From an uncultured Pelagibacteraceae bacterium (lineage in GTDB: Bacteria; Pseudomonadota; Alphaproteobacteria; Pelagibacterales; Pelagibacteraceae), in NCBI GenBank assembly GCA_902635685.1, contig CACPOY010000001.1, forward strand, positions 124,001 through 188,000: a DNA stretch of 64,000 bases. Direction: 5' to 3'. Within the stretch, counting starts at the first letter, position 1, and each line of letters starts with the position of its first letter. The notes below the pieces were generated by a model. That model ran no database searches and was not told where the DNA came from. It saw only the letters and a program-made list of their open reading frames with translations. This document shows, in pieces, positions 51,512-52,893 of this stretch. A program made the position numbers and the translations under genes.

Positions 51512-51837
51512 TGACATATATAGTTAATCAAAATTGTATTAAATGTAAACTAATGGATTGTGTTGATGTATGCCCAGTCGATTGTTTTTATGAGGGAAAA
51601 AATATGCTTGTAATTAAACCGGATGAGTGTATAGATTGTGGCGTTTGTGAACCAGAGTGCCCTGTTGATGCCATTAAAGCTGATACAGAGCCTGATAGTA
51701 AAAAATGGATAGAGATAAACAAAAAATATTCAGAAATCTGGCCTAATATAAACGAAAAAAAAGATCCTCCCTTGGATCATGAAAAATATAAAGATGAGCA
51801 AAATAAGTTTGAAAAATATTTTAAAGAAAACCTTTAA
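51511..51837 (+). CDS. fdxA: Ferredoxin (7Fe/3Fe-4S + 4Fe-4S type)
   Basis: [37 protein letters not shown]. Confidence 0.95.
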
Positions 51838-52672
51838 AAAAAAAACTAAACCAAAAATAAAAAAAATAAAATCAATTAGTGCTAATAAAATTACTAAGAA
51901 TAAAAAAGTAAAAACAAAATCTAAAAAAAACAAGATTGTTAAAATTACTAAAGTTAAAAAAATTACAAAGATAAATATAAAAAAAAAAAATGAAAAAACC
52001 GAAACTAAATCAGAAGCTTTAAGGATTCCAAAGAGTAATGAACTAAAACCAGAAATTAAGAAAGTAAAGAAACAAGAGACTGCAAAAAAAGAATATAAGA
52101 TTAAAGATTATGTAGTTTATCCTAAACATGGAGTTGGTCAAATATCTGAATTTAAAAAAATTAATATAGGTGGAATTGATGTAGAAACATACATAATTAA
52201 ATTCGAAAAAGATAAGGCTAATGGCATGGTCCCTGTTAATAAACAATCTCATTTAAGACCTCTTGCTACAATTAATCAAGTAAACAAGTGTATTTCTATT
52301 TTAAAAAGTAAACCTAAAATTAAAAGGTCAATGTGGAGTAGGCGTGCCCAAGAGTATGAGGCAAAAATCTCTTCAGGAAAGATTTATGAATTGGCTGAGG
52401 TGGTAAGAGATTTAAATAAAGGTGATGATTTGATGGTTGATCAATCTTATTCCGAAAGACAACTATTTGAAAAAGCATACGAAAGAATTTTGTCGGAATT
52501 TCAAATTATACTCAATCTATCATTAGAAGATACTCAAAAAAAATTAGATAAAGCATTAAAAAGAAACCTTGATAATCAAAATAAAACCGAGATTAAAGAA
52601 GAAAAAAATGATTCTCCTAAAATTCCAAATGAAGAACCTATATCTGATGACGTTGTACAGTTAGAGGATTAA
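51779..52672 (+). CDS. CarD-family transcriptional regulator with Lys-rich N-terminal extension (start uncertain)
   Basis: CarD N-domain [20 protein letters not shown].., [27 protein letters not shown]. Confidence 0.88.
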
Positions 52673-52718
52673 AAAAAAACGCCCCTCACACGTATATCGT
52701 TATGAGAAGCGTTTTTAA
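52673..52718. terminator. Probable bidirectional intrinsic terminator between convergent genes
   Basis: AAAAACGC-CC-CTCA..TGAG-AA-GCGTTTTT imperfect stem flanked by A-tract and T-tract. Confidence 0.7.
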
Positions 52719-52735
52719 TAAAGAATACTAAGTTA

Positions 52736-52813
52736 TTATCTTCTTCTTCTTTTTTTAGCTTTTTTCTTAGCTTTTTTCTTAGCCTTCTTTGCTTTTTTTC
52801 TTCTCTTAGGCAT
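52736..52813 (-). CDS. 25-aa Lys/Arg/Ala-rich basic peptide, absent from supplied ORF track
   Basis: Reading rc gives MPKRRKKAKKAKKKAKKKAKKRRRR followed by TAA TAA; AGGGAG SD-like sequence just upstream. Confidence 0.75.
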   Translation of the reverse strand: MPKRRKKAKKAKKKAKKKAKKRRRR

Positions 52814-52835
52814 CTTTAGCTCCCTTTTTAGTTAA

Positions 52836-52854
52836 ACGAATCAAAATGATTCGT
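52836..52854. promoter_or_regulatory. Perfect inverted repeat (ACGAATCA-AAA-TGATTCGT) in the 5' leader of the basic peptide
   Basis: 8-bp perfect palindromic arms, 3-nt spacer, seen directly. Confidence 0.6.
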
Positions 52855-52864
52855 CATTAGGTTA

Positions 52865-52893
52865 TTTTTATTTTTTTATACGCGTTATGTCAA
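52865..52893 (-). promoter_or_regulatory. Candidate promoter for basic peptide (TTGACA at 52888..52893, weak -10 TAAAAA)
   Basis: Consensus -35 on minus strand with 17-nt spacer to a 4/6 -10 match. Confidence 0.4.

Follow-up and report, generated by a model that had tools for sequence, protein, structure and literature searches.

A conserved SAR11 micropeptide gene beside carD and the rhtB RNA motif as its candidate antisense regulator

Background

SAR11 bacteria rank with the most abundant cell types on Earth; their regulators are few and their intergenic spaces very short. In the 64,000-nucleotide stretch of Pelagibacteraceae DNA analyzed here ("the window"), a reading frame on the minus strand encodes the 25-residue peptide MPKRRKKAKKAKKKAKKKAKKRRRR, in which 19 residues are lysine or arginine. 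Is this frame a gene and, if so, what controls it and what might its product do?

Results and discussion

An unlisted peptide gene convergent with carD

A preliminary description of the locus had proposed an ORF with tandem stops, a Shine-Dalgarno-like site, a TTGACA element, a leader palindrome and a terminator. All of these are seen directly in the sequence, as follows.

52736..52813, minus strand: micropeptide ORF of 25 amino acids, read from 52813 to 52736 and ending in tandem TAA stops (sequence and translation)
52888..52893, minus strand: -35-like TTGACA, 76 to 83 nucleotides 5' of the ATG in the copies examined (sequence)
52865..52870, minus strand: -10-like TAAAAA, 17 nucleotides beyond TTGACA (putative promoter role)
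52836..52854, minus strand: leader hairpin ACGAATCA-TTT-TGATTCGT (palindrome; folding)
52820..52824, minus strand: Shine-Dalgarno sequence GGGAG, 6 nucleotides 5' of the ATG (sequence)
52672..52714, minus strand: intrinsic terminator, a conserved hairpin plus T-run that touches the carD stop (sequence and fold)
51779..52672, plus strand: carD (PF02559 and PF21095), the convergent neighbor of the peptide gene (synteny)

The TTGACA and TAAAAA elements form a putative promoter. The AAAAAAATAAAAATA block does not vary across 27 close copies, and leaders containing TTGAC[AT] and CGAATCA are common to the genus of the window and other genera of the family. The arms of the leader hairpin, CGAATC and GATTCG, are present in 160 of 162 copies, and the 5' end of the peptide mRNA would be expected close to this hairpin, near AACGAATCA. 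A gene for an AMP-binding enzyme lies upstream on the same strand. We also observed that a stretch of the 3' UTR, TTAGTATTCTTT (52723-52735, minus strand), shows strong conservation in the peptide mRNAs of many members of the genus; it is predicted to pair with codons within the ORF.

Among the 297 ATG-initiated ORFs of at least 20 amino acids in the 64-kb window, this is the sole one with a lysine-plus-arginine content of at least 60%. ORFs in which this content reaches 76% or more were absent from 20 random 64-kb sequences of the same dinucleotide make-up. The ORF is therefore more than a chance occurrence.

When the peptide was used directly as a protein query, 30 of 297 genomes of the family gave near-identical copies, all of them in the genus of the window. 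For 19 of 20 genus genomes missed by this search we obtained a carD match, and in all 19 a version of the peptide lies beside carD with the same GGGAGCTAAAG-ATG start. The apparent absences thus reflect the weakness of searches with a low-complexity query, and carD synteny recovered the remaining copies. The 119 distinct copies in the genus are all open, and they encode 44 different peptides of 20 to 35 amino acids composed solely of M, P, K, R, A, T and S. Insertions and deletions in the ORF are multiples of three nucleotides, whereas an A-run just 5' of it changes by single bases. The promoter-like block, the leader hairpin, the GGGAGCUAAAG-AUG start and the terminator are conserved among the genus copies, and the start sequence GGGAGCTAAA[AG]ATG is kept across the genus. 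Since the 3' end of the adjacent carD diverges freely, this conservation is not merely a product of recent descent. Public records with a matching pattern come from Pelagibacteraceae, including Candidatus Pelagibacter ubique.

These observations confirm the ORF as a genuine, previously unlisted gene of Pelagibacteraceae (SAR11). They also support the proposal that the micropeptide is encoded by a conserved transcription unit of its own: relatives retain open frames, the start and the flanking elements, and the gene withstood a search of those relatives for loss of the ORF or Shine-Dalgarno sequence, frameshifts and premature stops. We found no earlier report of the peptide in the open-licence literature.

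The start site is complementary to the rhtB RNA motif

Searches with the pattern of the start site gave a second match in many genomes, which proved to be the rhtB RNA motif (RF01814). A weak plus-strand match to the rhtB Rfam model at the peptide locus is an antisense match to this RNA; weak matches of the locus to rli38, ctRNA and STnc430 fall below cut-off and were taken as chance. In the genome of the window, RF01814 lies elsewhere (contig C2, locus L158, 585-631) and scores 79.3 bits with the covariance model, against a cut-off of 55. Meyer et al. (2009; PMC2704228) described it as a candidate motif with a conserved loop and bulge, left open whether it is regulatory, a terminator or an inverted repeat, and proposed no target. 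We found no target described for it in the open-licence literature.

Read toward rhtB, the RNA is GATAGUCCUU-CUUAGCCAUCUUUAGCUCCCGGUUUUU-AAGGACUAUC, with a loop and bulge complementary to the Shine-Dalgarno sequence and AUG of the peptide mRNA. Its outer stem varies in pairs (CCTT/AAGG, CCTA/TAGG and CCA/TGG). The complementary part of the peptide gene is the following.

52811..52824, minus strand: 14-nucleotide core GGGAGCTAAAGATG, whose complement is found in the RF01814 loop and bulge

Pairing may reach beyond this core, to 52805 and 52829. Whole-genome scans of 17 genomes placed the 14-mer GGGAGCTAAARATG at two sites only, the peptide gene and RF01814, with one mismatch in the gene copy of G222; other one-mismatch matches vary from genome to genome. 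Complementarity over the 14 nucleotides is perfect in 59 of 61 genomes that carry both sites, the exceptions being a G-U pair (G208) and the G222 mismatch. Five genomes have AAAAATG in the mRNA, and all five have the compensating base in RF01814. They form one clade in a carD tree (support 85), which indicates a single paired event, kept since. At position +9 the tendency is the same: roughly two independent contrasts have support, and none runs in the opposite direction. Versions of the peptide with proline at position 2 have a C-C mismatch in the pairing beyond the AUG. Judged by sequence, then, complementarity to the start site appears to be unique in the genome and to have been kept by compensation, in one event.

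Folding calculations are consistent with such pairing. The predicted duplex at the peptide start has an energy of -34.6 kcal/mol, compared with -19.3 kcal/mol for the most stable among 60 other ORF starts from the window. Co-folding the two RNAs gains ~16 kcal/mol over folding them separately, and both pairing sites are mostly unpaired when each RNA folds alone. When mRNAs were swapped among genomes, own pairs were only slightly favored (-36.5 versus -36.1 kcal/mol) and 40 of 5000 permutations were as low, in a comparison from which relatedness was not removed.

Distribution and genomic context of RF01814

RF01814 exceeds the Rfam cut-off in 118 of 151 genomes of the genus and in 37 of 40 high-quality ones. 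There was no match in 14 control genomes. Outside the genus, 20 genomes from other genera gave nothing over chance, and GGGAGCTAAAG is missing from the peptide start regions observed there. In readable sequence from sister genera (L378-L384), the DUF2805 and LysE/RhtB genes are divergent and separated by a short gap that lacks RF01814, which makes the RNA an apparent acquisition of the genus of the window. In two other genera, the peptide leaders (L084, L085, L087, L089 and L090) have CTCC ~10 nucleotides 5' of GGAG. These sequences could form a cis hairpin that hides the Shine-Dalgarno sequence, where the genus of the window has a trans RNA.

An extended -10 sequence, TGNTATAAT (at least 7 of 8 positions matched), is located 6 to 8 nucleotides 5' of the hairpin in 71 of 90 RF01814 copies; shuffled sequences average 1.2, and the opposite side of the hairpin has it in none of the 90. 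As far as a sequence motif can indicate, RF01814 thus appears to have its own promoter in the right direction, and a separate transcript would begin at GATAGTCC. A T-run of at least five follows the hairpin in just 31 of the 90 copies; in many genomes, therefore, the RNA may extend into rhtB.

Proposed mechanism and alternatives

The explanation that best fits these data, and that we consider likely as a whole, is that RF01814 acts in trans as an antisense sRNA and represses the translation of a minimal, histone H1-tail-like polycation gene beside carD. The hairpin RNA would be made at another chromosomal site, under a promoter of its own. Its loop and bulge would pair with at least 14 nucleotides spanning the Shine-Dalgarno sequence and AUG of the peptide mRNA, and ribosome binding would be blocked. 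When RF01814 is scarce, or the mRNA is freed, the peptide would be made; as a disordered polycation it would then bind DNA or RNA without sequence specificity. Its likeliest role would be in nucleoid compaction or in CarD-linked transcription. Because RF01814 is complementary to the translation start, the cell probably meters out this tiny histone-tail-like peptide by antisense RNA.

The direction of control could also be the reverse. RF01814 might serve chiefly as a 5' leader for the mRNA of the LysE/RhtB exporter, with the peptide mRNA pairing to its loop and so opening or shutting rhtB. In most copies, including that of this genome (L158, 585-641), the LysE/RhtB ATG is 4 to 14 nucleotides past the hairpin and the sole Shine-Dalgarno-like sequence, AAGGA or TAGGA, lies in the 3' arm, so the rhtB start site, too, may be masked by the hairpin. 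The lack of T-runs in about two thirds of copies fits a leader as well. However, the gene 3' of the hairpin may be rhtB, proC, or none facing forward, and hairpin and loop are unchanged throughout, which speaks for an RNA that acts on its own. We regard this reversal as improbable, and give a similarly low rating to two-way pairing, whereby the sRNA would gate a protamine-size polycation switch (nucleoid or RNA compaction, coupled to CarD) while the peptide mRNA also opens the RF01814 hairpin that hides the rhtB ribosome-binding site.

A small peptide matched at its start site by an antisense RNA is also what a type I toxin-antitoxin pair would present, with a toxic polycation and RF01814 as antitoxin, and strong polycations could harm the cell if overproduced. 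Type I toxins are usually hydrophobic membrane peptides, but 19 of the 25 residues here are lysine or arginine and there is no hydrophobic stretch. Moreover, other genera keep the gene beside carD in the absence of RF01814, as does the sister family in a longer form, and fixed synteny in small genomes is unlike a selfish module. Such a pair is accordingly very unlikely. We think just as little of the idea that the peptide is a bTHX-like ribosome-associated protein, with RF01814 regulating it in an autogenous or stress circuit. Small size, basic composition and a highly conserved start region agree with it, and strong expression is plausible. The preliminary description had raised this resemblance, which was not supported: length drifts freely from 20 to 91 amino acids as repeat units are gained and lost, and no Pfam or NCBIfam family or PDB chain matches. 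The least probable reading is that the RF01814 site is transcribed in the opposite direction, to give a decoy that mimics the peptide mRNA or a leader ORF of the DUF2805 gene. The opposite strand does carry the same GGGAGCTAAAGATGGCT sequence, but it has no extended -10. We rejected the leader ORF outright, as the would-be product is merely MAR, MAK or MA before a stop codon in many copies.

Relationship to longer H1-like proteins and to CarD

Elsewhere in the family, other genera have versions of the peptide with 21 to 58 amino acids in the equivalent position next to carD. In the sister family this place is occupied by proteins of 76 to 91 amino acids with AAPKKK/AKKK repeats, for example MEELKVIFAKARKKAKKKAAPKKKRKAAKRKPAKKKAAPKKKK..., which upholds the likeness to histone H1 tails proposed from the sequence of the window. 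Given this series, the peptide is probably a streamlined H1-tail-like protein at the short end of a Pelagibacterales family encoded beside carD. Kinship with the long forms is suggested by position, leader and graded length; the homology signal of these lysine-rich sequences is slight, and an alignment of such low-complexity sequences is no proof by itself. Pfam, NCBIfam and PDB searches with short and long versions gave no match, family models being weak on low-complexity sequence. A class-wide profile search also gave no match, but its first pass returned almost no candidates and it is uninformative. The composition of the peptide suggests that it binds nucleic acids.

CarD of the window (51779-52672, plus strand) has a lysine-rich N-terminal extension of ~90 residues, and several other alphaproteobacterial CarD proteins (L399, L401, L403 and L406) also have H1-like extensions rich in lysine, alanine and proline. 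In Myxococcus, histone H1 or its C-terminal region can replace the basic tail of CarD (PMC8156234). Together with the fixed neighborhood, these features suggest a functional tie between the peptide and CarD. The carD neighborhoods of 26 other alphaproteobacterial families, two of them poorly parsed, revealed no comparable adjacent small gene rich in lysine and alanine.

Significance

A conserved, unlisted polycation of 20 to 35 amino acids would add a likely nucleic-acid-binding factor to SAR11, in which chromosome packing has been little studied. The orphan RNA RF01814, unexplained since 2009, would gain a specific target, and the result is a directly testable sRNA-mRNA pair.

Comparison with known systems

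The peptide shares lysine/alanine/proline repeats, strong positive charge and presumed disorder with histone H1 C-terminal tails and the bacterial H1-like proteins HC1 and HC2, and the 76- to 91-amino-acid version of the sister family has the look of an H1 tail. Unlike them, the genus peptide has only 20 to 35 residues, with no folded domain and no Pfam or NCBIfam match. As with the basic tails of Myxococcus CarD, a basic disordered segment is associated with CarD, but in SAR11 the polycation has its own gene next to carD, and CarD itself carries a lysine-rich N-terminal extension as well.

The partner RNA belongs to RF01814, being over the cut-off and having the same hairpin and the same rhtB/proC context as the motif described in 2009. 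What differs from that description is that its loop and bulge are now explained as the complement of the start site of the peptide mRNA. RNA-OUT and IstR-1 are antisense sRNAs with single targets, and RNA-OUT pairs at the start site of its target. RF01814 resembles both in that the loop of a stable hairpin would pair with a single-stranded region of one mRNA, and resembles RNA-OUT in pairing at the start site; it too appears to have one target. In contrast to these RNAs, RF01814 is encoded far from its target, in trans, and that target is a conserved housekeeping-like polycation gene rather than a transposase or a membrane toxin.
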